Notes under the pieces: model-generated
What the model was told of the DNA's origin: nothing
Databases searched by the model: none
Seen by the model: the letters and a program-made list of their open reading frames with translations, nothing else
Translations under genes and position numbers: made by a program
Assembly (NCBI GenBank): GCA_017881245.1
Contig: JADGRC010000226.1
Coordinates: 1-39,069 of the forward strand
Reading direction: 5' to 3'
Source of the DNA: Pseudomonadota bacterium
Lineage (GTDB): Bacteria > Myxococcota_A > Polyangia > Fen-1088
DNA length: 39,069 nucleotides
Shown here: positions 15,369-33,636 of the stretch, piece by piece
How positions within the stretch are numbered: the stretch's first letter is position 1
Layout of the letters: every line of letters starts with the position of its first letter

Positions 15369-17075
15369 CTAGGCACGCTCCGGAGCGAGCGCAGGTGCGT
15401 TGGCCTTTCGATCCAGGTGGTTAATCCACAACTGCTGCACGATTCCGATCAAATAGCTCGTCAACATATAAACCGCCAGTCCGGAAGGCAGCACCAGCGA
15501 AAAAGCCGTGAACATCACCGGCATCATGACCGCCATCATGGCCTGCTGCTGATTGTCCGGCGACGTCGGCGACATCTTCATCTGCACGAACATCACCCCC
15601 CCCATCAACAAGGGGGTCACGTAGTAAGGGTCCTTGGCCGTCAGATCGTGGATGTGCAGGATGAATGGGGATCGGTACAGTTCGACGGCGTAGTTCAGTG
15701 TCGAATACAGGGCGATCCAGATCGGCATCTGAATCAAGCTGGGCAGGCAGCCACCAAAAGGCGACACGCCGTGCGCCTTGTACAAATTCATCGTTTCGGC
15801 AGATTGGCGCTGCTTGTCGCCTTCATATTTCTTCCGAATGATCGCCATCTTCGGCGCCAGCTTCTGCATCTTCTTGGCCGACATCAGGGACTTCTGCGTC
15901 GGATAGAACGTAAGCAAGCGGATGAAGATCGTGAGCAGAATAATCGCCACGCCCCAGTTGTGAACGAATCCGTGGAAGGTCTTGAGCAACCACAACATCG
16001 GCCGCGAGATCACGGCCAAGGTCACGTCGACCGCCTCGGTCAACTTCACGTCCCGACCGCCCGGCCGAACCTCGTCCAAATCCGCAATCACCTTGGGCCC
16101 GACGAAAATGGCAAACGAGTACTGGGTCCGTGCCCCCGGCGCCAGCTGGCGATCGGCGAAGGACAACAACGCCGCCCCCACCCCGGGCGCGGGGAAGGTC
16201 CCGGCGCAACTGCGCTCACGCGGCGGCGTTTCGGGATAGGGGACTGCGGCCGTCAGGAAGAACTTCTCGTCTGCGCCAACCCAGTTCACCGCCCCCACCT
16301 TCTCGAACGGATCCTTCTCCAGCTTCTCGACCGCCTCCCGCACCATCTTGTCGTCGGTGTTGCACAGAATGCTCGACGTGTTGCCCGAGGCTCCCGAAAG
16401 AAAACCGCCCTTGGCTTCCTGATCCTGCCGGCTGAACATCAAGATACCCAGGTGGTGATCCTGGGGCGCGGCGGTCCGGTTCTCGACCGTCACGTCCAGG
16501 TGCACGCGAAAGCGCGTCTTGTCCACGATGAAGCGCTTTTCGATGGCGACCGCGGGCGACTCGGCGCGATAGACGACTTGATCCGTTCCCGGTGCGGCGG
16601 TCTCGTCGACCACCTTCCAGGCCGAATCGGCGGGGGCGGGAAACCCCGACTTAGGAAACGTGATCCGAAAGGGAGCCTGGGCCGGATCCGTCGTCCGCAC
16701 GAGATCCACGCCGCTTCCGGCATCCCCAGCCTTCAGCAAGTACTTGGCCTCGCGCAACTGGGCGTGACGCAAGGACGCCCCACGGTTCGAAAACACGAAC
16801 CGCTCGGAGTCGGTCACGATCACGGTCTCCTTCTCAGGGAAGGAGGAGGGCGAACCTTCGCCGGGTCCTGCCACGGCGGTGCCGGACGCGGAAGGGTGCG
16901 ACCCCGCCGGGTCCACCGGGAGCCCGCTCTTCGCGGCCGACGCCTCAGGCGAGGCCGCGATGGGCGACGCGGGGGCCGGGGCCGGGGCGGGAGCCGGCGG
17001 TGGAAATAACTTCGCCCAGGCGAACAGAATGCCAACGCACAGGGCGATGGCCAGGATGACTCGTTTCTCCATCAT
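15369..17075 (-). CDS. yidC: Membrane protein insertase YidC
   Basis: YidC inserts and folds inner-membrane proteins, alone or with SecYEG. The start is the first ATG after AAGGA (ATG 17075, 568 residues; the next codon is also ATG). An N-terminal anchor (VILAIALCVGILFAWAKLF) is followed by a Pro/Ala-rich linker. The large periplasmic beta-supersandwich domain typical of Gram-negative YidC comes next (about residues 85-340). The conserved membrane core then follows, with PTQKSLMSAKKMQKLAPKM (cytoplasmic C1 loop), GGCLPSLIQMPIWIALYSTL, and the last helices ending in a Lys/Arg-containing tail. The hydrophilic-groove Arg, usually in the first core helix, is not obvious here: the helix WGVAIILLTIFIRLLTFYP has its Arg near the end, as is usual. 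It follows yidD by about 70 bp. Confidence 0.97.
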   Translation of the reverse strand: MMEKRVILAIALCVGILFAWAKLFPPPAPAPAPAPASPIAASPEASAAKSGLPVDPAGSHPSASGTAVAGPGEGSPSSFPEKETVIVTDSERFVFSNRGASLRHAQLREAKYLLKAGDAGSGVDLVRTTDPAQAPFRITFPKSGFPAPADSAWKVVDETAAPGTDQVVYRAESPAVAIEKRFIVDKTRFRVHLDVTVENRTAAPQDHHLGILMFSRQDQEAKGGFLSGASGNTSSILCNTDDKMVREAVEKLEKDPFEKVGAVNWVGADEKFFLTAAVPYPETPPRERSCAGTFPAPGVGAALLSFADRQLAPGARTQYSFAIFVGPKVIADLDEVRPGGRDVKLTEAVDVTLAVISRPMLWLLKTFHGFVHNWGVAIILLTIFIRLLTFYPTQKSLMSAKKMQKLAPKMAIIRKKYEGDKQRQSAETMNLYKAHGVSPFGGCLPSLIQMPIWIALYSTLNYAVELYRSPFILHIHDLTAKDPYYVTPLLMGGVMFVQMKMSPTSPDNQQQAMMAVMMPVMFTAFSLVLPSGLAVYMLTSYLIGIVQQLWINHLDRKANAPALAPERA

Positions 17076-17148
17076 CAATGATCATCCTTATGCTCGTGAG
17101 CGCGCTCGTGCCAACCTCGCCGCGGCTTCCGTTCATCCATCGTTAGAC

Positions 17149-18123: not shown

Positions 18124-19557
18124 TTATCGCAGATACTTGGCCAAACCGACATTCTGCGACTTGATGGCGCCGGCCACAAGGCCCGCGATCTTCGCCGCCC
18201 CATCGAGGTTCGTGTGGGTGGCATCGCTCCCGTTCGCGTGGAACTTCAACGCCGCGGCCTGGGAGCCGAGCGTGTTGTACCAGGCGACCGAGAGAGCCGT
18301 GAGATCGATGTAGTCCACCATTTTCGAGGCTGCCGCCGCCTTGGCCGCCGCCGCGTGAAGGCTGGACTGATCACCCTCCATCGAACCGCTGAACTGCACG
18401 CGGGCCGGTGGGGAAACCAAGAGAGCGGTTACGTTGGCGGCTTTCGCATCAGCCACCATCGACTCAAGGTGCTGTTGAACGGTGGCGTCCGCCACCCCTT
18501 TGTCGTTGTGGCCAAACTGGATAATCACCCAGTCCCCCGCGCTCCACTTCGCCTTGATATCGGTCCAGAAGCCGAAACTCGAGCTGGCTCCGCTATTGGC
18601 ATAGTTGGCAATTCCAACAGGTGGTGCGAAAAACTCGGGCAGCATCTGACCCCAGCCGCCAAAGACATTCCCAGTCTGATCGCACGCTGTGGAATCGCTG
18701 GCCATGTAGACCATGACCGGTTTGGTCGTCGCCGTGGCCAACGCGTAACCAATCGCGGACACCTGCGGATTCGTGCCGGAGTAGAAGATGTCCAGGCCCG
18801 GGTATCCCGATGGACCGCCCGCATGCTTGGGCTGCCCCTCCATGGCCCGAACGTTGACCACGAACGCGTAATCCAAAGACTGTCCCGCCGTGGTGGCGAC
18901 GGTCGGCAGGAGCCCTCGGCTCGATTCCGTGCCGACATACGTCTGTCCCGCCGCCGCGCCGCCTATTTTCATGGTGACGAGGTAATTTCCAGCCAGCATC
19001 GTACCTTCCGCCGTGGGAGCGGTCTCGGAGGTACCATAGGTCGTACCCCCGAACAGGCACTGCATGCACATCGGGCCCGGGCCGCCTCCCGGACACAATC
19101 CAGCGGTCAAGCCGACCATCGTGCACTTGGCGACATTTGCCGCGGTGGGCGCGGGATATCCGTCCGGGATTCCCGTTGTCGCGGGCGGGGGACCGACGAC
19201 GACAACAGAACCGCCTGCTCCAGGACTTCCACCAGTCGGTCCCCTGCCACCGCCCGATACAACCGAGCCCGCGGTCCCGGTGACCCCTCCAGAGCCGGGC
19301 AGGGAGGCACCGCCCGTTCCCGTCGTTTCAGACGAGCCCCCCGTTCCTTCGACGGAGGCTCCTCCCGTGGAGGAGACGACCGTACTGCCGCCGGTTGATG
19401 TGGGGGCAGGGCCGCCCGTCATCGTCGAGCCTCCGGTGGATGAATGGGTTGCTCCCCCGGTGCCAGCGGGCGTGCCGTCCGATGCAGCCGGGGAACATGC
19501 GGTCAACCCGACAATCGCGAACAACGAGAGCCATGAAAAACGCTGTGTGGTGGTCAT
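18124..19557 (-). CDS. Secreted SGNH esterase, rhamnogalacturonan acetylesterase-like (CE12), lipoprotein
   Basis: The ATG at 19557 has GGAGG 8 bases upstream and yields 477 residues; the frame is open further upstream but without support. The signal peptide ends in the lipobox GLTAC (Cys21). About 110 residues of Gly/Ser/Thr linker follow, typical of exported myxobacterial enzymes. A Cys-bearing stretch comes next, then a beta-rich domain (NYLVTMKIGGAAAGQTYVGT) matching the N-terminal part of CE12 esterases. The hydrolase domain then shows block I YMASDST (Ser289 as nucleophile), GWGQMLPEFF, NYANSGASSSFGFW, block III FGHND, and the C-terminal DATHTN with Asp445 and His448 completing the triad. 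It probably removes acetyl groups from pectin-like or other polysaccharides outside the cell. The exact substrate is uncertain. Confidence 0.88.
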   Translation of the reverse strand: MTTTQRFSWLSLFAIVGLTACSPAASDGTPAGTGGATHSSTGGSTMTGGPAPTSTGGSTVVSSTGGASVEGTGGSSETTGTGGASLPGSGGVTGTAGSVVSGGGRGPTGGSPGAGGSVVVVGPPPATTGIPDGYPAPTAANVAKCTMVGLTAGLCPGGGPGPMCMQCLFGGTTYGTSETAPTAEGTMLAGNYLVTMKIGGAAAGQTYVGTESSRGLLPTVATTAGQSLDYAFVVNVRAMEGQPKHAGGPSGYPGLDIFYSGTNPQVSAIGYALATATTKPVMVYMASDSTACDQTGNVFGGWGQMLPEFFAPPVGIANYANSGASSSFGFWTDIKAKWSAGDWVIIQFGHNDKGVADATVQQHLESMVADAKAANVTALLVSPPARVQFSGSMEGDQSSLHAAAAKAAAASKMVDYIDLTALSVAWYNTLGSQAAALKFHANGSDATHTNLDGAAKIAGLVAGAIKSQNVGLAKYLR

Positions 19558-19963
19558 TGCAAATCCTCCGCTTTCCTTAGGGACCCGAAGGTCCGGCTCA
19601 ATCGGGACAACTGCCCGGCTCATCAAAAGGGTGAACTGGTTTAGTAGGGGTATCATGTAGGACCCTGTCTCGGGGCTTACCGTGAGTGCGCCAAAGTGCG
19701 CCAAGGGGAATCGCGATGGCCGCCTTCGAGACCAGGTCTTCTCGAGAATAGCCAGGTATTCCACGAGCCTAGGCCGCCAATGGCTCATTTCCGCTCTGGT
19801 CTGCCCTCGACACGGGTCCCATGGCAGACCCAATTTCGGCCTTTACCGTGAAAGCGCCTAACCCGGTCTCGATGACAACCTTTGAGGCGCGGTGTATTGC
19901 CCCCCCAAGTAACCAGAAGCAACCAAGTGACCGACAGTATAGACACACCTGGGCGTGGGCCAG
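19558..19963. other. Intergenic region between M23 peptidase and SGNH esterase genes
   Basis: This 406-bp gap lies upstream of the esterase and downstream of the M23 gene (both minus strand). It should hold the esterase promoter, but no convincing -35/-10 pair was found. Seen in it: a GGACC-TTCG-GGTCC hairpin (19581-19594, minus strand) just before the esterase ribosome-binding site; a tandem GTGCGCCAA (19685-19703 area); and two similar stretches, CTTACCGTGAGTGCGCC near 19676 and CTTTACCGTGAAAGCGCC near 19841. No coding frame with support is seen. Confidence 0.6.
19581..19594 (-). promoter_or_regulatory. UUCG-tetraloop hairpin in the esterase leader
   Basis: On the minus strand GGACC-TTCG-GGTCC forms a 5-bp stem closed by C-G around a UUCG loop, an unusually stable RNA hairpin. 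It lies about 10 bases before the GGAGG ribosome-binding site. A role in mRNA stability is inference. Confidence 0.4.
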
Positions 19964-21700: not shown

Positions 21701-21723
21701 CGCCGCCCGCTAGACGTTCCTAG

Positions 21724-21749
21724 CGCAATTCTTTCGCAATCTATCGCAA
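21724..21749. repeat. Three CGCAA motifs in helical phase
   Basis: CGCAA occurs at 21724, 21735 and 21745, spaced 11 and 10 bases apart, in the otherwise non-coding gap between metF and the outer-membrane protein gene. One helical turn of spacing fits repeated protein binding on one DNA face. The function is unknown. Confidence 0.45.
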
Positions 21750-21804: not shown

Positions 21805-21855
21805 CGAAAGGCCTTCTGCTAGACTTCGCCGCTACTGCTCCCCCAAGGAGGCTCT

Positions 21856-22962
21856 TTGAGGCAACTGGCCAAAGATGTACGGGTCGCCGGTTCGCTGGCC
21901 CCGATTCTCGCGATCCTGTTGATATTGACCTCGGCGCGCGGTGCGCGAGCCGACGGTTTCACCAAGGATCAGCTCGGCACCGTCGCAAAACCCGCAGACG
22001 ACAAGGGCAAACCCGCTTGGGTGCAAAAGATGGCCGGCTCAAGCGTGGAGGTGAGCAACTACGTGGGCAGTGGGTCCTTCTATACCAGTCGCTACCGTGA
22101 CCCTTACGTGTCGGCGGCCGTGTTCGCGCGGCCGACCTACGATCTGGGAACGCGTCTCAAACTGTCGGCGAACGCGCGCGTCTACATAGAGCAGGAGTTC
22201 ACCAAGCCCGATGTCCCCAATGGACGTGGTTTCAATCCTTATGACGTTTGGCTGTGGCTCTCGGCCAAGGAGCTATACAGGTTCGACGGATCGAAGATCC
22301 GGGTGGGAGGCGTGGCCCGCGTGGTGATTCCGGTCTCTTACGAGAGTCGATATTCCCACATGGTCACCGGCCTGGCGGCGGGCCTGAGTCTGAATCGGAC
22401 CTTCGAGTTTGGTCACGCTCCCGTGCCGGAGCAGCGCTGGAACCTGGCCACGTCGTTGGCCGGCGTGTTCACCAAATACTTCTACACGAACGATCTGCGC
22501 GGCAGTGGCCCCAATGACAGCAGCGGCTGCCGTCCCTTTCTGGCGGCGGGCTTGGCTGCGGGCAGCGCGGGCGGCCCGACAGCCGCCGCGTCGGATCGCT
22601 GTGGCGGCTCGGTCAACACCAATTTCGCCCTCGCGACCAGCGGAACCGTGGCGCTGTCAAAAGGCAAGTGGAGCCTCGCCACCATCCTGGTGATCTCCAA
22701 TTCGTTCCGCTACCGGGTCTCGGCGGACACCGAGGCGATGCTGCCCCGGAGCGACGTGGGTCGCGCGGACACCACATGGGGCATTGTGTCTTTCGGATAT
22801 TCATTCACCGATCACGTGGGAATCAGCGTCGGGCTCTCCAGTTTTCAAAACGCGCTTGATTCCCAGTACAAAAATCTACGCTTCCCCTTCTTCGATCTTT
22901 CAGGGGGGGCCAACGCCAACAATTACACGCAGGGCTTCGTAAGCTTGAGCGGAACGCTGTAG
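21856..22962 (+). CDS. Predicted outer-membrane beta-barrel protein
   Basis: The 368-residue product starts at a TTG with AAGGAGG 4 bases upstream. A signal peptide (hydrophobic core LAPILAILLILTSARG, cleavage near GARA) precedes a chain of amphipathic strands with aromatic girdle residues: SVEVSNYVGSGSFYTSRY, TRLKLSANARVYIEQEFT, WSLATILVISNSFRYRVS, YSFTDHVGISVGLSSFQN. A short loop contains two Cys (residues about 222 and 248). The final residues QGFVSLSGTL fit a closing strand, although the terminal residue is Leu rather than the usual Phe. No transporter family is recognised. The stop is 10 bp before the ATG of the giant zincin lipoprotein, so the two are very probably co-transcribed and may work together at the outer membrane. 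Confidence 0.78.
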   Translation: MRQLAKDVRVAGSLAPILAILLILTSARGARADGFTKDQLGTVAKPADDKGKPAWVQKMAGSSVEVSNYVGSGSFYTSRYRDPYVSAAVFARPTYDLGTRLKLSANARVYIEQEFTKPDVPNGRGFNPYDVWLWLSAKELYRFDGSKIRVGGVARVVIPVSYESRYSHMVTGLAAGLSLNRTFEFGHAPVPEQRWNLATSLAGVFTKYFYTNDLRGSGPNDSSGCRPFLAAGLAAGSAGGPTAAASDRCGGSVNTNFALATSGTVALSKGKWSLATILVISNSFRYRVSADTEAMLPRSDVGRADTTWGIVSFGYSFTDHVGISVGLSSFQNALDSQYKNLRFPFFDLSGGANANNYTQGFVSLSGTL

Positions 22963-22972
22963 GAGGATTGAG

Positions 22973-25900
22973 ATGACCCGTCCATCGGTAGGCAACATTT
23001 CCAGGTTTTTTCGGGTGGGCACGACTGTGGCGTTGTTGGCGGCGGCGGTGGGTTGTGCCGGCAAGGAAGACATCGACCGATCGCAGCCGGACAAGATCGC
23101 CAAGGCGCTCTTGTTCAACGCGGACGGGTCGGCGAAGAAGTTCTACTACCGCTGGACCATTGTCGATGTTCCGACGACCAACGGCTGGGCTTACGAGGGC
23201 ACCCAGGGGTCGATGGACAAGGTCACGTTCAAGATCACCCAGGATCAACTGATCGGCTATCGAGCGTACGACTATGCCCCCGGAATCGAGAACGCGATAA
23301 CGGGCGGCGCGAACAACACCGACGCGCCTGTCTTTTCCTTCAAGATCACGTCGCACTTCGACGTCAAACGAGAATACAACCCGGGCACGGGCGAACAGAC
23401 CAACGTCATCAGCGAAAACACCACCGACCGTGATTGGTCCGAGCGCGAGTTCATGCGGGTGGATTGGTCGACCGACAAACTGGCGAACCCGCTGATGGAT
23501 ATTTCGCTGCAGCCGTCGGCTTCCGCGGATGGGACCCCCGGATCGGCAAACGTCGGAACCTCGGCGATCAGCGAGGTCGAGATCACGAACCCTGGGCGCG
23601 CCATCTACACCAAGGACTACCTGGATGTCACGGTGCAGACACAGGCGACTCCCGACTACGCCGCATGCACGAAGTTGGCGGCGCCCGATGACGTGGGACC
23701 GTGGAGCTGCGGACCGGCCAAGGTCAGCCTGAGGCATTCGTTCATGGCGGTCAAGGACGGCGAATACCAACCGCTCGAGTATCCCGACCGTCAGCCGCTG
23801 TTGGATGCCTCGCAAAAGCCCATTTCGGTCGTGTGGACGAGCAGCGGTCCGCACACCTGCGACGACCCAACGCTATCCCAGACCGGGGGAACGTACAGCG
23901 GCGCGGACTGCACTCACGTGGGCGCCGACGAGTTCAGCAAGTTCGGATTCTTCCGGACCGTGCGCCAGTACTACGACCGCAAGTTGGGCGCCAACGAGCT
24001 GACCCGTAAGTACCTGGCGAATCGCTGGAACATCTGGCAAAAGACGATCGATCGGGATACGAACGGGAGCCCGAAGCTGAACGCGGATGGTACGCCCGCG
24101 CTCATCAAGGAGGAAAACCGCACGCCTCGCGAGATTCCGTACTACTTGAATGTCGAGTTTCCCGACGACGATCCCATGCTGATGGACAGCGCAAAGCAGG
24201 TCGTTGCCGAATGGAACGACGCCATGAAACGCACCGTGGCCGGTCTGCAGTTGTCGGCGAAGGCACTCGCAAAGGCGCAGACATCGGACGGGGTCATCCC
24301 CGAGGCCACCGTCGTCGCCGCCGCCGCAAGTATCCCCGACATTTTCGTGCTGAAGACGAACTCCTGCAATGTCGACGGGGTCAAGACCTACCTGACCAGC
24401 CACCCCGACATGGTCTCGCTCGTCAAGGACAAGACGTCAAAGGTCTCCCCCGCGATTGATCCGACCGCGGTCACCAAGAGCAATTTGGTGCCCATCTGCA
24501 CGGCGCTCGAGGCGCTGACGCAAACGCTCGACGACAAGGACACCAAGAAGTTCTCTTGGCAGCGCAACGGCGATCTGCGCTATTCGTTCGTCTACTGGGT
24601 GGACCGGCCCCAGGGATCGTCGTCAGCGCCGCTCGGATACGGACCGTCGTCGCCTGATCCCGAGACGGGCGAAATCGTGTCGGCGACCCTGTACCTCTAC
24701 GGAGCCGCGCTCGACACGTATACCCAATTCGCGGCCGACAGCGTGGATCTGCTGAACGGAAAGTTGTCCTCGAACGATCTGTTGTCGGGCAAGCGCGTCT
24801 CCGACATTATCAAGGAGACCGCCGCGAATCGACAGCAGCGCGACGCATTCGTCCTCACGTCCGAGGCCCGCGACTACGCGCACGCTTTGGCGTCCTCGGG
24901 GGGGGTGCCCGGAGCCCGACCGGCCCTGTCGAATCCCGTCCCCGGTGCCCCATCGTCCACGTCATCGTCCCGTCTGGTCACGGTCGACCCGTTCGCCGTG
25001 GACGCAAAACTGGCAGCTCTCAAGGGCACGCCGGTTGAACAGATGATGATGACCGAGGACATCCTGTCAGCGTTTGTTCCCAACTACATTCCCGGACGAA
25101 CCAATATCCAAGACATCCCGGCGCAGGATCTGGCCAAGGCATCGCCCTCAAGCTGGATGGGCGAATCGGCGCGCCAGGCCCGCCGCGATCGAGCGCAAAA
25201 ACTGGCTATCAATGGATGCGTCCTGACGGCCGACTTCGCCGACGACGCCATCTTGGGGACGGCGCTGCAACTGGCGGACTTGTCGGGTGACGTGCTGTTC
25301 AAGACGTTGCGGGCCAGTATTTTTCGTGGTCTGGCCGATCACGAGATGGGTCACACGATGGGACTGCGACACAACTTCGCCGGCTCGACGGACGCCCTCA
25401 ACTACGGCAAGCAGTACTGGGACATCCGGACCAACATGGCGCCGGAAGACTGGGCCAAGAATTCCCTGCCCGAGCATCAGTACTCGACGGTCATGGACTA
25501 CGGCGCCCGATTCAACACCGATGTCTCGGGGCTGGGTCGTTATGACTATGCCGCTATTCGTTTCGGCTACGGCCAGCTAATCGACATCATGCCGACTGCC
25601 ACCAGCGCGGCCAATCAACTGAGCTACGATTTGTTCTTCGGCGACTACAAGAAAATTCCGGACATGGTGGGCGGCGTGGACAAGCTGGAAGATACCGCCA
25701 TCATGCCCTACAAGATCTCCGTGGCGAACCTCCAGGACGGTTACCAGAATCTGGCCTCCAACATGGGTAAGTTCGGAATCTTTCCGGAGCGTCCGTACAA
25801 GTTCTGCAGCGACGAATTCGAGGGGAACCTGGACTGCAAACAATGGGACCAGGGTGCCAACCAGCAGGAGATCGTCAACAACGTCATCGACCTTTTCAAG

Positions 25901-27115
25901 AACTACTACGTGTTTAACGGTTATCAGCGTGGGAGGCTCACCTGGAGCATAAACAGCTATCTGACCCGATTGAGCGGTCGTTACTTCAATCGTTTCAGCG
26001 AAGCGTTTCAGTTCTACTACTTCTTCGGTGACTCGTTCTCGGGGTCGGCGCTGTCGGATGACTTGTTGTCGGCCGCGATCTTGTCGCTCAATACTCTGGG
26101 GGAGGTTCTGGAGACGCCCGAACCTGGCCTGCACTGCGCGACTGACAGCAGTCCCGATGTCTTGGCCGTCAGCCAGGGCTTCGGCACGCAGACCTGTCAC
26201 AACGACGCGCCGGAGATGACCATCAGCCTACCCGATGGCAAGCCGTACTACATCGACTTTTCGGACGACTACTACTATCGAATCACGCGTGCCGGATCAC
26301 TGTACGAAAAGCTCGCCGCCCTACAGGCTCTGACCAGCACGCAATCGCGCTTTTTCCGAGTAGACAACTTTGCCGACCAGGACCGTTACTCGATCAACTA
26401 CTATCGCCTGTTCAAGGACCAGATGCTGACCCTTCTGTCGGGCGTGATCCGCAATGATCCGACCGCATACGGCGGATACGTGGCAAGCGGGGTGTACAAG
26501 CCGGCGCCGGTCGTGGATCCCAGTATTTTCGGCAAGGCCACCTATCCCATGCCTGAATACATGCTGCCCACGGCCAAACGGGTAGACACGCCTGTCAACA
26601 AGACCATCCGGTACTTCGCGCTGGGATTGGCGCTGGCCCAACTGGACACAACGTGGGATAGCACGCTCGATTTCGGGAGCTATGCCAACGTCACTCTGAA
26701 GGGATCGAACGACGATCTGACCTATGCGCCCGGAACGACGGTGGTCGAGTTCTCCGATCCGACTTCCCATCAGGTCTATCACGCGGCGCAAATCGATCCC
26801 ACTCGACCGGGGATTGGGGTCACCGTGCTCCAGGAGTTGAACCAGATCGCTGGCGTACCAGGAACCCCCGGTACTTTGCCAAAGAAGTACGGCACATCGG
26901 GCGGACAACCCCTGCCTGATTGGTACACCGCAAAAGGCAACATGGCCGCCGCGCAAGCGGCCGCGGCTCAGAACACCGACATGACCAAGTCAGCGGCTAT
27001 TCAGACGGCGTACACGAATGCTGTGGAGATATTCAATGCGGTCGACTACACCCTGAACTATCGGATCGACCTATTGGGTGACATACGCACCTTCCGACGC
27101 GCGTTCCTCCAGTAG
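22973..27115 (+). CDS. Giant zincin lipoprotein (met-zincin, HExxHxxGLRH)
   Basis: This 1380-residue protein begins at an ATG with GTAGGAGGATTGAG upstream. The signal peptide ends in AAAVGC (Cys28 lipidated). The metal site is HEMGHTMGLRH at residues 790-800, an extended zinc-binding motif with a third His. It is followed by YSTVMDYG with the Met-turn Met841, as in the Met_zincin/DUF4953 group of large exported proteases. The N-terminal 750 residues contain beta-rich stretches of unknown fold, with frequent Asp and Tyr. The C-terminal 500 residues are rich in Tyr/Phe and helical. It is likely an active zinc protease attached to the outer membrane, in an operon with the barrel protein just upstream. 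The substrate cannot be inferred. The length is at the upper end of the family. Confidence 0.85.
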   Translation: MTRPSVGNISRFFRVGTTVALLAAAVGCAGKEDIDRSQPDKIAKALLFNADGSAKKFYYRWTIVDVPTTNGWAYEGTQGSMDKVTFKITQDQLIGYRAYDYAPGIENAITGGANNTDAPVFSFKITSHFDVKREYNPGTGEQTNVISENTTDRDWSEREFMRVDWSTDKLANPLMDISLQPSASADGTPGSANVGTSAISEVEITNPGRAIYTKDYLDVTVQTQATPDYAACTKLAAPDDVGPWSCGPAKVSLRHSFMAVKDGEYQPLEYPDRQPLLDASQKPISVVWTSSGPHTCDDPTLSQTGGTYSGADCTHVGADEFSKFGFFRTVRQYYDRKLGANELTRKYLANRWNIWQKTIDRDTNGSPKLNADGTPALIKEENRTPREIPYYLNVEFPDDDPMLMDSAKQVVAEWNDAMKRTVAGLQLSAKALAKAQTSDGVIPEATVVAAAASIPDIFVLKTNSCNVDGVKTYLTSHPDMVSLVKDKTSKVSPAIDPTAVTKSNLVPICTALEALTQTLDDKDTKKFSWQRNGDLRYSFVYWVDRPQGSSSAPLGYGPSSPDPETGEIVSATLYLYGAALDTYTQFAADSVDLLNGKLSSNDLLSGKRVSDIIKETAANRQQRDAFVLTSEARDYAHALASSGGVPGARPALSNPVPGAPSSTSSSRLVTVDPFAVDAKLAALKGTPVEQMMMTEDILSAFVPNYIPGRTNIQDIPAQDLAKASPSSWMGESARQARRDRAQKLAINGCVLTADFADDAILGTALQLADLSGDVLFKTLRASIFRGLADHEMGHTMGLRHNFAGSTDALNYGKQYWDIRTNMAPEDWAKNSLPEHQYSTVMDYGARFNTDVSGLGRYDYAAIRFGYGQLIDIMPTATSAANQLSYDLFFGDYKKIPDMVGGVDKLEDTAIMPYKISVANLQDGYQNLASNMGKFGIFPERPYKFCSDEFEGNLDCKQWDQGANQQEIVNNVIDLFKNYYVFNGYQRGRLTWSINSYLTRLSGRYFNRFSEAFQFYYFFGDSFSGSALSDDLLSAAILSLNTLGEVLETPEPGLHCATDSSPDVLAVSQGFGTQTCHNDAPEMTISLPDGKPYYIDFSDDYYYRITRAGSLYEKLAALQALTSTQSRFFRVDNFADQDRYSINYYRLFKDQMLTLLSGVIRNDPTAYGGYVASGVYKPAPVVDPSIFGKATYPMPEYMLPTAKRVDTPVNKTIRYFALGLALAQLDTTWDSTLDFGSYANVTLKGSNDDLTYAPGTTVVEFSDPTSHQVYHAAQIDPTRPGIGVTVLQELNQIAGVPGTPGTLPKKYGTSGGQPLPDWYTAKGNMAAAQAAAAQNTDMTKSAAIQTAYTNAVEIFNAVDYTLNYRIDLLGDIRTFRRAFLQ

Positions 27116-27137: not shown

Positions 27138-29801
27138 TTAGCGGATCTGAAGATCGAAGGGAAGGCGAGCGTCGATGCCCTCGCCTGGGCCCAACAAGTA
27201 TGGAGCCGCAAGTCTGAGCGCGGATTTCACCGGTTCCGCCAGGCTTGATGGGGGAAAGGGCGAGGGCGCGCCATCGGCATTTGCTTGCGGAAGCCCGAGT
27301 ATCCTTTGGAGAACCGTGCTGTTTGGTCGCGGCAGGATCACGAGATCAGGCGTCTCGCGGTAGGTCAACGGAACGGCGCCGAGGGCCGCTGCTCGATCGA
27401 TGGCGGCAATGACGCCGCCAAAGTCGTCCACCAGGCCCAAGGGGCGGGCCTGGGCGCCGGTCCAGACGTGGCCACGACCGACCTCATCCACGCGCGCGGG
27501 CGTGACACCCCGAGATTTCCGTCCCGTTGCGACGGTGGCAACAAACAGGTCGTAGAGGTGCCGAATCTTTCGCTCGGTCATTGCGCGCTCGTCGGCGGTC
27601 CAGGGCCTATAGGGTGCCTGCTGGTCGGCGTGAGGTCCCCGCCGCACCACCTCGACGTTGATCGACAGCATCGACAGCAGGCGCGCCACGTCCAGTTTGA
27701 ACCCAAAGATACCTATCGACCCTGTCGTGGTTGAGGGCTCGGCGAAAATAACATCCGCCGGCGCGGATACGTAGTATCCCCCCGAAGCGGCGACGTCCGC
27801 CATGGATGCCACGACGGGCTTTCCCGCCGCGCGGACGCGCGAGACCGCGCGCGCGATGACGTCGGAGGAAAACGCCGAGCCACCAGGGCTGTTCACGCGC
27901 AGGACGACCGCGCGGATATCCGGATCGCGACGACATTCCTCCAGCGCGTCGACCAGCGTATCGGCGCCGGCGACGTCTCCCAGTCCGAGCGGGAAATGGT
28001 GGCTGGGTCCATCGCTGATCGTCCCGTCCAGCAAGATCACGGCGACCCGCGAGCGGGACCAGCGCGGCGAACGAAGCGGCGCCGGGTCGGAATCGAGAAC
28101 ATCGATTGCGCCAAGTCCCAGGAAATCTCGAAGGTACTGCTCGATCTCATGATCGTCGCGGACCGCGTCCACCAACCCCGCGCGTTGTGCCTCGTCGGGT
28201 GTGAACGTTCCCACGCTGATCAACTCATCCAGGCGCGCGACGTCCAGGGCCAAACTGGGTTTGGGTGACAATCCCGACCCGGCTAACGCCGACGCGCGCC
28301 CCGCCGCGATGCCGGACAGGATGCGAGCGTGGACATCGTCCAGCAGGGCGTTGCGATTTTGCCGCACGGGATCGGACTGGCTGGTCATGACATACGGTTC
28401 CATCGCTCCTTTGAATTCGGCGATGCGAACCAAGTCCACGTTCACGCCCAGACGGTCCATGGCGCCCTTGTAGAACGTCACGGCGTGCGCGAGTCCTGCG
28501 AAAGTCATCCCACCCGCGGGATGCATCACCACGCGGTCGCACGCGCTCGCCAAGTACGTGTCGCGCATCGACGCGTTGGTCACATACGCGATGACCTTCT
28601 TACCCCGCCCCCGCGCTTCCGCTATCAGATCGCGCAATTCTTCGATACGGCCAAAGCCGAGTTCGGTTCCCTGGACATTCAAGAGCAAGGCGGCTGTTGT
28701 CGTATCGCGCGCCGCGTGTCGCAGCAGCAAGGCCAGGTTCAAGAATTCGCGATCCGAGTCGGTTCCTTCCATTTTGACACGGGCCACGCGGCCCGAGCTG
28801 GTGGAGGAGCTGTTTCTCTCGGTGCTGGACCGCCAGGCCGCCGAGGCGCCCCAATTTTCGCCGCCCGCGCCCGACGGCGTGAACGAGCGCCGAGCCGCCA
28901 AGAGCAGCGCACCGTGATCGAAATCAAGGGCGAATCCGACGGTCGTCCGCCAATCGGTACCAGAGTCAAACGCCGACGACAGGACGTCGGAGCGGCGCGG
29001 CGCTAGCTCTACTTCGGCGAAGAGCCGCCACGCCGTGCCCGGGCGGGCGGCCAAACGCAAACGCGTTCCCACCCTTGACCACGGAGCGCCGCCGACGTGC
29101 AGCACGGCCGCGGAGAGCTCCAGTCGATCCGTGCCGGTCGGTCTCAGCGCCAACTCGCTGACCCAGCGGCGGGAAAGCCTATCCGCCGCGGCCGAAAGCC
29201 GCGGCCGGGCGAAGTCCTCGAGCACCAGTGCCCCGGCCACCCATCCGAAGGGCCGCCAGCCAACGCCGGCGTCGAATGTGTCGGTCCCGCCGACACGGCC
29301 ACCAAACAGATGAGCCCAGCTGGCCCCAATTCCGAATCTGCGCCCGCCAACCCCATATCCAAGTTGGAATTTACCGTGACCCGGCACGGCACCGCCGCCG
29401 CTGGCTGCGATCCCGTGTACGCCAAGCCCAACCCCGCCGCCTCCCCAGACCGGCGCGGCAAGGAACAGCGCCGCCCCCCTGCCCGGCATGGCCGCCTCGG
29501 CTCGCCAAAGGTTTCCGACTAGGGTCGTGGTCCCCGCGGTGATTAGGGGTAACTGGCCGGGGTTCAGTTCGACAGCGGTCGCATCCGCCTCGCCAGCCCG
29601 AGCCCCATCAGGCACGTACACGCCACGCGTCGGACGGAAGGTCGCGTCTGGAAAGTCTCCCCCCGATTGTCCGTACGCGACCCGTGCGAGGGTGGCCAGA
29701 AAGAAGACTGGCGGCAGGAGCAGCGCCGTCGCCGCGGCGGAATTCCGTCGCCGGCACGCTTGAGGGTGCGCTTGGGATCGTGGGCGGGGGAGATAAGTCA
29801 T
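27138..29801 (-). CDS. sppA: SppA-type signal peptide peptidase with beta-rich N-terminal half
   Basis: SppA is a Ser/Lys-dyad protease that degrades cleaved signal peptides in the periplasmic face of the membrane. The 887-residue product contains both SppA half-domains. The first, about residues 345-560, carries the catalytic Lys464 in RIAEFKGAMEPYV. The second, about 580-800, carries the nucleophile Ser642 in VNSPGGSAFSSDVI, followed by AASGGYYVSAPAD and TTTGSIGIFG. The 178-residue Lys-Ser spacing agrees with the long, 67K-type form. Before these lie about 300 residues not found in E. coli SppA: a signal peptide (to about VAYG) and Gly/Trp-rich repeated strands (LAAPVWGGGGVGLGVHGIAA, RRFGIGASWAHLFGGRV) that look like an outer-membrane-type barrel. 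It is divergent from the SCP2-like gene, with a gap of 34 bp. Confidence 0.88.
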   Translation of the reverse strand: MTYLPRPRSQAHPQACRRRNSAAATALLLPPVFFLATLARVAYGQSGGDFPDATFRPTRGVYVPDGARAGEADATAVELNPGQLPLITAGTTTLVGNLWRAEAAMPGRGAALFLAAPVWGGGGVGLGVHGIAASGGGAVPGHGKFQLGYGVGGRRFGIGASWAHLFGGRVGGTDTFDAGVGWRPFGWVAGALVLEDFARPRLSAAADRLSRRWVSELALRPTGTDRLELSAAVLHVGGAPWSRVGTRLRLAARPGTAWRLFAEVELAPRRSDVLSSAFDSGTDWRTTVGFALDFDHGALLLAARRSFTPSGAGGENWGASAAWRSSTERNSSSTSSGRVARVKMEGTDSDREFLNLALLLRHAARDTTTAALLLNVQGTELGFGRIEELRDLIAEARGRGKKVIAYVTNASMRDTYLASACDRVVMHPAGGMTFAGLAHAVTFYKGAMDRLGVNVDLVRIAEFKGAMEPYVMTSQSDPVRQNRNALLDDVHARILSGIAAGRASALAGSGLSPKPSLALDVARLDELISVGTFTPDEAQRAGLVDAVRDDHEIEQYLRDFLGLGAIDVLDSDPAPLRSPRWSRSRVAVILLDGTISDGPSHHFPLGLGDVAGADTLVDALEECRRDPDIRAVVLRVNSPGGSAFSSDVIARAVSRVRAAGKPVVASMADVAASGGYYVSAPADVIFAEPSTTTGSIGIFGFKLDVARLLSMLSINVEVVRRGPHADQQAPYRPWTADERAMTERKIRHLYDLFVATVATGRKSRGVTPARVDEVGRGHVWTGAQARPLGLVDDFGGVIAAIDRAAALGAVPLTYRETPDLVILPRPNSTVLQRILGLPQANADGAPSPFPPSSLAEPVKSALRLAAPYLLGPGEGIDARLPFDLQIR

Positions 29802-29835: not shown

Positions 29836-30447
29836 ATGAGTAACTGGGATCGACCGCCGGCGGGCATTCCCACCGCCGATTTTTTCGAGGCCTGGCTACC
29901 GGATGCGTACGCGGCCACGGGCCGACGGGCGCCGGCAAACGCTCCGCTCGTGCGCGCCACGCTGTCGGGCGCCGGCGGCGGCGCGTGGGACATCGAATGC
30001 GACGACGACCGTCTGATTGTCACCCCGACATCGGCGAATCCGCCCGATGTTTGGCTGCGCCAACCGGCCAAGGACTTCAGGGCGGCGTTCGACGGCGATC
30101 CCCAGCTGCCGGCTCTGATGCCGCCCGGTTGGAGCGCATTGGATCTGCTATTTCTGGATCCGCGCGACGCCGATATGCTGACGCAGATCTCAGGGCGGGT
30201 CCTGGTCGAGATCACCGGCCGGAGCGCGCGGCGGTGGTCGCTCGATATGGCGGTCGGCAAGGCGGGCGTGACCGCGGGTCGCCCGCGAACGACGATTCGT
30301 CTCGACGGCAGTACGTTCGAAGGTCTCCAGACGGGGTCGCTTCCGCCGATGCAGGCGTTGCTGGGTGGCCGGTTGACCATCGAGGGCGACCGGCCACTGG
30401 CCATGCAACTGCTCTTACTGCTCGGAAGCCGCCTCGCCCGACGTTGA
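29836..30447 (+). CDS. SCP2 sterol-carrier-like domain protein
   Basis: The 203-residue product starts at an ATG in CTGGATGAGTAAC. Its C-terminal part (TTIRLDGSTFEGLQTGSLPP, then GRLTIEGDRPLAMQLLLLL) matches the lipid-binding SCP2 fold, in which a helix and strand close a hydrophobic tunnel. The N-terminal half also looks SCP2-like, with beta strands and WDIECDDDRLIV. SCP2 proteins bind fatty acyl chains or sterols and often assist lipid-metabolic enzymes in the cytoplasm. No lipid-metabolism gene is nearby. The 3' end overlaps the convergent double-kinase gene by 33 bp. Confidence 0.72.
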   Translation: MSNWDRPPAGIPTADFFEAWLPDAYAATGRRAPANAPLVRATLSGAGGGAWDIECDDDRLIVTPTSANPPDVWLRQPAKDFRAAFDGDPQLPALMPPGWSALDLLFLDPRDADMLTQISGRVLVEITGRSARRWSLDMAVGKAGVTAGRPRTTIRLDGSTFEGLQTGSLPPMQALLGGRLTIEGDRPLAMQLLLLLGSRLARR

Positions 30448-33400
30448 TTCGCCGCCGTCATCCGATGAGTCGACCGCCGGATGGTGCAGTTGCCGGCGCG
30501 AACGAATGACTCGTCGTTTTAGGCGCGCATCGCGCGGGCTCTCGGCAAGTGCCTTCGTGAACTCACCGAGAGCGGCGCCGAAATCATTCTGGGCATAGAA
30601 CGCCTCGCCGAGCAAGGCATGGGCACCCCGACTCGGTCCGCTCGGATCCACAAGAGCGAGCGCCTCCCTTGCCTTGTGACTCGCGATGTTCCACCTGTAA
30701 ACCTTCACGTCCATCCAACCCGAAGCCACCAAGGCCTCGGCCAGGAGGGCCTTCGCCGCGGCGTCGCCTTTGGCGGCCACGGGACGAAGCACGGCGACTG
30801 CATCGTCGGGGGCGCCCGTTGAGAGGGCCGCGCGTGCGCGATCGAGCGGTGGAGTCTGGACGATTTCTGGACCGCCCCGAGGCGGGGTGAGGACGACGGG
30901 CTCGGATGCCCGACGAGCCGCGGAGGGCCCGGGCTCTGACAACGGCAACGATGGTGTCGGCGCCGCTACGTGCGAGCCTCGGCTCTCCGCGGGAACGGAC
31001 AAAGATGTAGCGGTCGCGCCAGAGCGATTGGTCGTCGGAGCATCTGCTCGCCTTCGTGATCGATGTACCCAATCGCGTGCGAATTCGGGTCCTCCGGTTG
31101 TGACGGCCCATGTCGCCGCGGCGCCGATCGCAACCACCCCGAAGAGAAATGCCATGGACCTGGGCGCGCGAGGCGGCTCAATCCGCTCCATGCTTCGATT
31201 CGCGTCCCCTTGCCCTCCGACACCCATCGGGTCTACGGCCACATCCTCGGGCAGTTGGACACCCTCGGACGGCGAGAGATCGGCCTCCAACAGCTTCTCG
31301 AAATCAGGCGCCACCGTGCGGCTCACCCCCGGCGGCGACAGCTTGCGCGCCCGCACAGACAGCGGCAAAGAGTGGTCGCCGTCCTTCGCGGGATTCGGCC
31401 GCTCGCTTTTGTCGCTTCGGGCGGCGGCCTGGCCGGCAGCCGGACCGCCCGCCGATGGTCCATGGTCTTCGTGCGATTCGGCTGTGGGCGCCAAAGACCG
31501 CGATGGACGCCAGACAATCGTGGCCAATTGCTGTTCCAAACGCGCCATCGTCTGAGGCCGGCGTTCTGGATCCGCCGCCAACGCGCCAAGAATGATCACG
31601 TCCAGGTCCGCCGGGATATCCGGCCGCCCGCTTCGCAGCGAGGGTAACGGCTGTCGCTTGGCGTCGAGCATCGCCTGATGCGACGATTGGCCGCGAAACG
31701 GCGGCGCGCCGATCAGCATCTCATGCAGGAGCGCGCCCAGGGCGTATACGTCGGTTCGCCGATCGACTGGCCTTCCTTGCGCCTGCTCGGGAGCCATGTA
31801 TTCGGGCGTTCCCATGGCCATCCCGGGATTGGTCAAGCGCCGCGATTCGCCGGACAGATTGCGCGCGACACCAAAATCCAACACCTTTACGAAATCCGTC
31901 CGTCCATCCCGCGCGACCAAGAAAATATTCTCGGGCTTCAGATCACGGTGAATGATGCCCTTGGCGTGCGCCGCCTCAAGCGCCTGGCAAATCTGCGCCG
32001 CGATCCCCACGGCCCGCACGACGTCGATCCGCCCCTCCCGGGCCAGCACATCGGCGAGATCCACTCCCTGCAGCAGCTCCATGACGAAGTAGGCGCACCC
32101 TTCCTCCGTCGCTCCGAAATCCGTCACCTCGACAATGTGGGGGTGTCCCACCTGAGACGCCGCGCGCGCCTCGCGCCGGAACCGCTCGACCAACTGTTCT
32201 TCCCCCGTGAACATGCGATGCAGGATCTTCACCGCGACCTTCTTGCCAATCTCGACGTGCCGGGCCTCGTACACGGTCCCCATCCCCCCCTCGCCAATCC
32301 GCTTGTCAACGTGATAGCGGTTGTCGATCACACGTCCGACGAACGTCTGCGCCGCCGCCTCCTCACCTGCCTCCTTTCGCTTGCGCCAGACCTTCGTGGG
32401 AGCATCGGCAACCGAAGACTGCTCGACTGTCCCGCGCCCGTGTGAATCCGCGCGCGCCCGCAGCGCCGAAACGTGCAACGACTCCCGAGGGGCCTCCACC
32501 ATCCGCAGAACCTTGGCGCCAATCGGCGTCGACGGCGCCGTTCGATCGCCGTCCCTCGAAGGGGACAGTCCCCCAGGAACGAAGGCACCCACCGCGGACG
32601 AGGTGGCGGGGGGAATCACGGTGGTGCGGGGCGTGCTCGATTCGGGGCTCGGCTCGCCACGAAACCGAGGCAATGTCTCGGTCAGCAAACGCTCCCGCTC
32701 GGCGGCCTCCTCGTTTACGACTCCACGATAGAGCCCCCGCAGAAACCCCGCGATGCGCTCTGAGTCGGCGCGTGGGGCCACGCGGGTCATCACGTCGGAC
32801 AGCGCCTCGCGCAACTCCTCCGCGGACTGGAATCGCAAGGTCCGATCGGCGGCAAGCGCTTTCAACACGATCGCGTCCAGCTCGGGGACAATCCACGGTG
32901 CGCGCGTCGATGGTGGCTGGGTCTTCGGATTGCGCACCAACGAGAGCGACGTCACGGGATCCAGCCCCGCGAGTTGCAGATAAGGCTGCCCCGTCAAGAG
33001 TTCCCAGAGCATGATGCCCAGGCTGTAAACGTCGGTGCGGGCATCCGCGACCTCACCTCGCGCCTGCTCCGGCGCCAAGTACGAGGCGCGCCCGAACACC
33101 ACGCCCGGGGCGGTGTGTTCCTGCTTCAAAATGCTGCGGGCCAGGCCGAAATCGGTCAGCTTCACCTCGCCGAAATAGCTCAACAGGATGTTCGGCGGCG
33201 CCACATCCCGGTGCACGAGCCGAAGTCCGGCATATGAGTGAACGTACGCCAGGGCGCGCGCGATCTCGCGCGCCACGACCAACGCCACCTCCACCGGAAT
33301 CCGGGTGCGCGTACGTACGCACCGGTTCCAGATCTCGCGCAGATCCTTGCCTTCGACCAACTCCATGGCGATGAACAGCTCACCACCCACGTCGCCCGCG

Positions 33401-33636
33401 TCGAATGTGGACACCAAATTCGCATGCGACAGCCGCAGGACGACCTTTGCCTCATCCAAGAATCTGTTGATCTTGGCGCGATCGGACTTCTCGGTGATCA
33501 CCTTCTTGATCACGCACAACTTGTTCAGTCCGCCGGGTTGGCCCGACACCGCCAGATAAATCTCCCCCATGCCGCCACGAGCGAGCGATTTCAGCAAAAC
33601 GTACTTGCCGAACTGCCTCGGGACGTTCTCCGACAT
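30415..33636 (-). CDS. Tandem Ser/Thr protein kinase with membrane segment and C-terminal TPR
   Basis: The 1073-residue protein holds two complete kinase domains. Kinase 1 (about residues 11-290) has the Gly-rich loop LARGGMGEIYL, the beta3 Lys in CVIKKVI, HRDVAPPNIL, LTDFGLAR and ASYLAPEQARG. Its catalytic loop has Ala where most kinases have Lys, a variant common in myxobacteria. Kinase 2 (about 440-705) has IGEGGMGTVYEARH, VAVKIL, HRDLKPENIFL, LDFGVAR and GTPEYMAPEQAQG, the canonical form. A Pro/Ser-rich linker joins them. A hydrophobic helix (AFLFGVVAIGAAATWAV, about 828-850) crosses the membrane, and a short TPR-like domain (about 930-1045) follows outside. The layout suggests a sensor whose periplasmic TPR part controls two kinase modules. 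The gene lies about 100 bp downstream of the hybrid histidine kinase, separated from it by a terminator. Confidence 0.93.
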   Translation of the reverse strand: MSENVPRQFGKYVLLKSLARGGMGEIYLAVSGQPGGLNKLCVIKKVITEKSDRAKINRFLDEAKVVLRLSHANLVSTFDAGDVGGELFIAMELVEGKDLREIWNRCVRTRTRIPVEVALVVAREIARALAYVHSYAGLRLVHRDVAPPNILLSYFGEVKLTDFGLARSILKQEHTAPGVVFGRASYLAPEQARGEVADARTDVYSLGIMLWELLTGQPYLQLAGLDPVTSLSLVRNPKTQPPSTRAPWIVPELDAIVLKALAADRTLRFQSAEELREALSDVMTRVAPRADSERIAGFLRGLYRGVVNEEAAERERLLTETLPRFRGEPSPESSTPRTTVIPPATSSAVGAFVPGGLSPSRDGDRTAPSTPIGAKVLRMVEAPRESLHVSALRARADSHGRGTVEQSSVADAPTKVWRKRKEAGEEAAAQTFVGRVIDNRYHVDKRIGEGGMGTVYEARHVEIGKKVAVKILHRMFTGEEQLVERFRREARAASQVGHPHIVEVTDFGATEEGCAYFVMELLQGVDLADVLAREGRIDVVRAVGIAAQICQALEAAHAKGIIHRDLKPENIFLVARDGRTDFVKVLDFGVARNLSGESRRLTNPGMAMGTPEYMAPEQAQGRPVDRRTDVYALGALLHEMLIGAPPFRGQSSHQAMLDAKRQPLPSLRSGRPDIPADLDVIILGALAADPERRPQTMARLEQQLATIVWRPSRSLAPTAESHEDHGPSAGGPAAGQAAARSDKSERPNPAKDGDHSLPLSVRARKLSPPGVSRTVAPDFEKLLEADLSPSEGVQLPEDVAVDPMGVGGQGDANRSMERIEPPRAPRSMAFLFGVVAIGAAATWAVTTGGPEFARDWVHRSRRRADAPTTNRSGATATSLSVPAESRGSHVAAPTPSLPLSEPGPSAARRASEPVVLTPPRGGPEIVQTPPLDRARAALSTGAPDDAVAVLRPVAAKGDAAAKALLAEALVASGWMDVKVYRWNIASHKAREALALVDPSGPSRGAHALLGEAFYAQNDFGAALGEFTKALAESPRDARLKRRVIRSRRQLHHPAVDSSDDGGESTSGEAASEQ

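Follow-up and report, generated by a model that had tools for sequence, protein, structure and literature searches.

A conserved gene pair encoding an outer-membrane-type barrel and a giant zincin lipoprotein in Myxococcota

Results

Organization of the locus

The window, which is the whole stretch of 39,069 nucleotides that was analyzed, carries two plus-strand genes separated by a gap of 10 bp. The first gene (21856-22962), for which the ORF listing gives a TTG start, encodes a barrel-like protein of 368 residues, and the second (22973-27115) encodes a lipoprotein zincin of 1380 residues. The 10-bp spacing, the 1380-residue lipoprotein and the intact HEMGHTMGLRH zinc site and Met-turn had all been read from this DNA in an earlier note, and each was recovered from the ORFs and the sequence. 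The features of the two genes are collected in Table 1.

Each gene is preceded by a Shine-Dalgarno sequence. The one ahead of the zincin gene shares nucleotides with the barrel stop codon, and translation of the two genes is likely to be coupled. A simple pattern scan found no plus-strand terminator between the two genes, and it placed a terminator-like stem on the plus strand at 21708-21725, 3' of the upstream MTHFR gene. On the other side, the downstream neighbor (27138-29801, minus strand) is convergent to the zincin gene, and the transcription unit would therefore consist of the two genes. As far as can be read from the sequence, the barrel and zincin genes are laid out for co-expression.

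The surroundings of the pair offer some observations of their own. The convergent neighbor is an 887-residue ORF that has a Peptidase_S49 (SppA-type) domain in its C-terminal half according to Pfam; its N-terminal ~330 residues read like an outer-membrane beta-barrel, and it is possibly a natural barrel-protease fusion adjoining the pair. A single 1073-residue ORF (30415-33636, minus strand) reads as two tandem serine/threonine kinase domains. In one other locus (L042, genome G005) a related kinase is encoded on the downstream side of the zincin gene, and local synteny may reach past the pair. Two neighboring ORFs on the minus strand (15369-17078 and 18124-19833), both of 569 residues, are possibly tandem paralogues.

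Table 1. Features of the barrel and zincin genes in the window (positions are those of the window)
Feature	Position	Strand	Basis or remark
Shine-Dalgarno AAGGAGG of the barrel gene	21845..21851	+	4 nt ahead of TTG; sequence
Predicted Sec signal peptide of the barrel, ~residues 1-32, ...ARGARA/D	21856..21951	+	sequence inference
Barrel loop L3 (beta5-beta6), residues 159-168, PVSYESRYSH	22330..22359	+	conservation over 84 barrels
Shine-Dalgarno AGGAGG of the zincin gene	22961..22966	+	overlaps barrel stop TAG 22960-22962; sequence
Lipoprotein signal peptide and lipobox of the zincin, lipidated Cys28	22973..23056	+	C in 50/50 aligned homologues
Tether motif next to lipidated Cys28	23054..23128	+	family consensus; found only on these zincins
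N-terminal beta-rich domain of the zincin, ~residues 28-270	23054..23782	+	conserved block in relatives; model strands
Zinc-binding helix HEMGHTMGLRH, residues 790-800	25340..25372	+	HExxHxxxxxH in homologues
Met-turn STVMDY, residues 838-843	25484..25501	+	Met841, Tyr843 invariant

The barrel protein

Searches of Pfam and NCBIfam gave no match for the barrel protein. An AlphaFold2 model built with 27 homologues has 12 strands (pLDDT 74, pTM 0.74). Residues 9-46, in the N-terminal region where a lumen-plugging segment would be sought, fall below pLDDT 50 in the model; within this stretch, Ala 32 at the end of the predicted signal peptide is conserved in at least 90%.

When the model was compared with solved structures using Foldseek, the best matches were FapF (5o65, 5o67 and 5o68) and the COG4313 channel Pput2725 (4rl8), at a probability of 1.00, with TM-scores of 0.38-0.61 and rmsd values of 5-8 Å over the matches as a whole. 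FapF shares the 12 strands and was matched with E-values of 1e-4 to 9e-4 and TM-scores by target of 0.47-0.61 among the top 17 rows, while Pput2725, also 12-stranded, was matched with an E-value of 4e-4. A PDB profile search found no sequence-profile match of the barrel to either 4rl8 or FapF. COG4313 corresponds to the Pfam family Phenol_MetA_deg, which is matched, weakly (E 0.049), by one of the 27 barrel family members. The view that the barrel belongs to no known family is thus upheld for sequence, where Pfam and NCBIfam come back empty, and falls for fold, where Foldseek leads to the COG4313/FapF channels. The modeled barrel appears to resemble these channels by fold and by the position of a motif, yet it fails the sequence test, and for that reason we have not filed it under COG4313/FapF.

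The motif in question lies in loop L3, the most conserved segment of the barrel among 84 non-redundant family members, with the family motif P-[TVI]-S-x-x-S-[RQ]. The mean divergence score was 0.47 for L3, 0.33 for the strands and 0.20 for the periplasmic turns. The most conserved residues are P159 (83/84), D130, S164, S161, P344 and Y315, and the second and third positions of the L3 motif are T in 62/84 and S, in place of G, in 77/84. This P-[TVI]-S sits in the beta5-beta6 loop where FapF and COG4313 channels carry P-T-G. In FapF, an amyloid exporter of Pseudomonas, the PTG lies at the base of beta5-beta6 (PMC5557850). In COG4313 channels, nine conserved residues of L2-L4, including Asp92, Pro119-Thr120-Gly121 and Asn166, form a patch that has been proposed to act as a lateral gate (PMC4493636). 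The window barrel has a similar set in D130, P159-[TVI]-S161 and N254, which correspond to the D of L2, the P-T-G of L3 and the N of L4. These motifs would be support for the fold match that is independent of the structure comparison. Apart from the serine that replaces glycine and the missing sequence match, the barrel differs from FapF in that no coiled coil, plug or trimer is evident. Outer-membrane barrels usually have both termini in the periplasm and their long loops outside. By this rule, loops L2, L3, L4 and L6 of the modeled barrel would face outwards.

The zincin lipoprotein

The lipobox of the zincin ends in AVG-C28, with Ala at position +2. Only one Pfam family, PF16313 (DUF4953), matched the protein above its cut-off (residues 779-806, E=5e-8, 33 bits against a gathering score of 24.2), and this match covers profile positions 8-35 only, that is 28 of 316 and not most of the profile. 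The same family was matched by 24 of 24 sampled zincins at E <= 0.01, with a best E-value of 2.5e-11, and NCBIfam returned nothing above its cut-offs. Most of the 1380 residues are therefore without a recognized domain, as the earlier note had said.

The zinc site is highly conserved among 155 non-redundant full-length homologues, 154 of which have HExxHxxxxxH and 146 HExxHxxGxxH, and this conservation argues that zincin catalysis is under selection. By its motifs, the lipoprotein is a remote Met-zincin of the DUF4953 kind, with both HExxHxxGxxH and the Met-turn intact. What sets the zincins described here apart from DUF4953 is their size of 1300-2000 residues, with an N-terminal beta domain of their own, a helical insert and a C-terminal part.

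These parts are seen in a model of residues 28-1227 (pLDDT 82.7, pTM 0.89), where a beta-rich N-terminal domain is followed by the zincin core and a mostly helical C-terminal part. A helical insert of ~200 residues interrupts the zincin core ahead of the zinc helix. Comparison of the model with PDB structures found no chain at E <0.001, and the N-terminal domain is likewise without a solved homologue. The absent structure match is probably explained in part by the insert. A PDB profile search returned a collagenase zinc helix alone (E ~0.01).

Directly behind the lipidated cysteine, the zincins share the consensus C-A-x(6-8)-R-V-Q-P-N-x(3)-K-x-x-F-x-G-E-W-Y, which we refer to as the tether motif. 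Conservation over the first 40 residues behind Cys28 was 0.56, compared with 0.58 for the active-site block. Searched against 59 genomes, a 29-position profile of the tether matched 53 places at E <= 1e-6, with the next match at 0.003. All matches that could be placed lie in zincin genes; one further match (G008:C86) is a fragment at a contig end. As the matches that could be placed are confined to zincin genes, the tether is, by this profile, private to the zincins and is no sorting signal of lipoproteins in general. Its conservation may also come from packing on the zincin's own N-terminal domain.

Conserved adjacency of the two genes

Zincin homologues were found in 29 of 59 relatives, several of which hold multiple paralogues. 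In a first set of 49 loci, most of them with flanks, an iterated barrel profile placed a barrel on the same stretch as 33 of 51 zincin ORFs, on the same strand in every case. The barrel is mostly directly upstream of the zincin in this set, and in one subgroup it is downstream. A profile search was used here because automatic gene calling masked many upstream barrels under antisense ORFs. In a second set of 76 named GTDB loci (Myxococcales, Deltaproteobacteria, Labilithrix, Archangium, Myxococcus and others), a barrel lies on the stretch for 59 of 103 zincins, a lower bound given that several contigs stop at the gene. Fifty-two of these 59 barrels are upstream on the same strand, 5 are downstream on the same strand and 2 are downstream and convergent. 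The common operon orders are barrel-zincin and barrel-zincin-zincin, sometimes reversed, and in one Archangium locus (L189) the stop and start of the two genes overlap. With both homologues likewise arranged in dozens of genomes, the arrangement in the window is not a matter of chance.

Clustering of the neighbors of these loci found no third conserved gene belonging to the unit, and no transporter or peptidase family recurring beside the pair. Two kinds of variation are seen at individual loci. In one subgroup (L043, L072), the zincin is preceded by a cysteine-rich lipoprotein-like gene, and the barrel is shifted to the downstream side. Elsewhere, two different giant zincins stand in tandem, with or without a barrel in front (L055, L083, L084, L126, L128, and further operons at L137, L138, L169, L177 and L214); in L083 and L084 the tandem zincin genes are 1 bp apart.

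Co-occurrence beyond linkage

Co-occurrence across Myxococcota had been set beforehand as the test of a joint system. Among the 59 relatives, the barrel family (profile A1) was found in exactly the same 29 genomes as the zincin family. A single-sequence barrel search had given the appearance of a loose association, with a barrel in 10 of 59 relatives, and this was overturned by the profile search (29/29).

The comparison was extended to 284 genomes of the phylum, in searches that scored the best few candidates per genome. Profile A1 detected the barrel in 143 genomes and the zincin was detected in 152; 142 genomes have both, 10 the zincin only, 1 the barrel only and 131 neither (Fisher p ~1e-67, uncorrected for kinship). 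With A5, a broader profile of the barrel, a full-length barrel was recovered in one of the genomes that had been zincin-only (G066), which brings the counts to 143 with both, 9 with the zincin only, 1 with the barrel only and 131 with neither. Weak barrel matches in the genomes scored as absent mostly fell within the profile's low-complexity leader; the strongest of them, in G220, proved to be a different barrel.

The two families also occur together where their genes lie apart. Stand-alone barrels with no zincin within ~8 kb (L195-L207 and L210-L213) come from genomes that do carry a zincin elsewhere. Within one genus (g24), two genomes (G036, G044) hold both families on separate contigs and three (G183, G220, G230) hold neither, and four families (f1, f3, f8, f11) are likewise split by concordant presence and absence. 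This shared presence and absence, even of unlinked genes, argues for a functional connection over mere neighborhood. Because both families are retained or lost together though the genes lie apart, we consider the barrel and zincin very probably to be a functional pair, a hitherto undescribed two-part working system of the cell envelope. The proposal of a joint two-gene system thus has strong support: the adjacency of the genes is conserved, and the two families are distributed almost identically among genomes, unlinked cases included. This shared distribution is the weightiest evidence for the pair.

The pairing is not one to one. Some zincin paralogues are orphans (for example, L057-L059) and some barrels stand alone, so that several zincins probably share one barrel. 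In two high-quality genomes (G082, G258), the zincin is present and a barrel was not detected. The distance matrices of barrel and zincin correlate at r=0.70, a value from which the species tree was not factored out and which is similar for the operon's second zincin.

Three further genomes gave proteins of 815-980 residues (L228 in G051, L229 in G027 and L230 in G035) that are matched by the family profile around the zinc site only. These genomes are without the barrel and without a giant zincin, suggesting that the short DUF4953-like proteins are a barrel-independent zincin lineage. As short zincins occur without it, the barrel would go with the giant subfamily.

Discussion

The pair described here combines known kinds of part, a 12-stranded barrel that has no family name and a Met-zincin, in a new variant of association. 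Compared with COG4313 channels, the nearly obligate link to zincin lipoproteins is a new feature. We found no paper on DUF4953 in a literature search, and a search for metzincins in myxobacteria yielded no such pair and no experimental work on it. The outer-membrane proteome of Myxococcus xanthus lists barrels and lipoproteins with adjacent numbers, MXAN2659/MXAN2660 and MXAN7039/MXAN7040 (PMC3222651). These may be relatives of the window pair, and we give them as a lead only.

How might the two proteins work together? The best explanation overall, which we put forward tentatively, is a dedicated two-part outer-membrane system in which the barrel displays or anchors the protease. As its cognate partner, the barrel would carry the giant lipoprotein to the external face of the outer membrane and keep it there. 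It would do so by recognizing the tether motif that follows the lipidated cysteine, and the conserved cluster of loops L2/L3/L4/L6, with P-T/V-S where the lateral-gate motif reads P-T-G, could be the place where the lipoprotein exits or docks. Once exposed on the cell, the zincin would cut extracellular proteins, be they prey, matrix or envelope. The separate steps of this proposal merit different degrees of confidence. A physical complex of barrel and zincin, whose structures were predicted separately, seems fairly likely, and a location of the zincin at the cell surface is favored by a little. That the barrel is needed to display or anchor the zincin is a possibility about which we are somewhat doubtful. 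Mutation of the PTG in FapF left export running (PMC5557850), and this counts against a display role.

Outer-membrane barrels that work with a lipoprotein, which the barrel displays or which caps the barrel, are familiar from Slam, LptD/LptE and SusC/SusD. The window pair differs from these systems, as no relation in sequence or fold was seen, there is no TPR domain, there are no TonB features and the barrel is of another size. A more specific version of the display proposal would be a Myxococcota lipoprotein-display machine unrelated to Slam, in which one barrel of the COG4313/FapF fold reads a private motif of 25-30 residues that follows the lipidated cysteine and so transfers several paralogous giant (~1300-2000-residue) zincins to the external face of the outer membrane. 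We regard this version as rather unlikely.

For COG4313 channels, import of hydrophobic molecules has been proposed, by way of an opening in the barrel's side at the PTG cluster (PMC4493636), which counts against display and points to an uptake pair instead. A surface zincin would digest proteins or lipidated peptides, and the products would enter through the COG4313-like barrel, much as in SusC/SusD or RagA/RagB. The window barrel has the equivalent conserved loops, and several zincins per barrel would suit a shared pore. However, TonB-dependent features are absent, transporter and peptidase families do not recur near the pair, and such a role has no need of a private tether motif; we judge uptake unlikely. 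The closest fold suggests a different arrangement, in which a periplasmic zincin cleaves either the N-terminal segment of the barrel or a polypeptide exported via the barrel. The fap system couples the FapF barrel with an essential periplasmic protease, FapD, that is required for FapF-dependent export (PMC5557850), and both the P-T-x motif at the base of the beta5-beta6 loop and a protease within the same system are points of likeness. The periplasm is, moreover, the default location of a lipoprotein. Yet no further gene recurs at the loci as a possible exported substrate, amyloid genes are not recognized near the pair, FapD is a C39 cysteine peptidase and not a 1380-residue lipoprotein zincin, and the conserved loops would be on the outer side of the barrel by its inferred topology. 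A FapD-like processing pair is, in our estimate, distinctly improbable. It is very improbable indeed that the two genes have no functional link and are neighbors by descent with separate roles in the envelope. Stand-alone barrels and orphan zincins would fit such a history, but it is at odds with the near-perfect co-occurrence of unlinked genes and the concordant absences within several families and genera.

Myxococcota are predators and degraders, and to our knowledge the way in which they place large enzymes on their surface is poorly understood. Roughly half of the sampled genomes of the phylum have the pair, frequently with multiple copies of the zincin. Display of the zincin by the barrel, if true, would be a new function for the COG4313/FapF fold, and giant surface proteases would be accounted for as a whole class.
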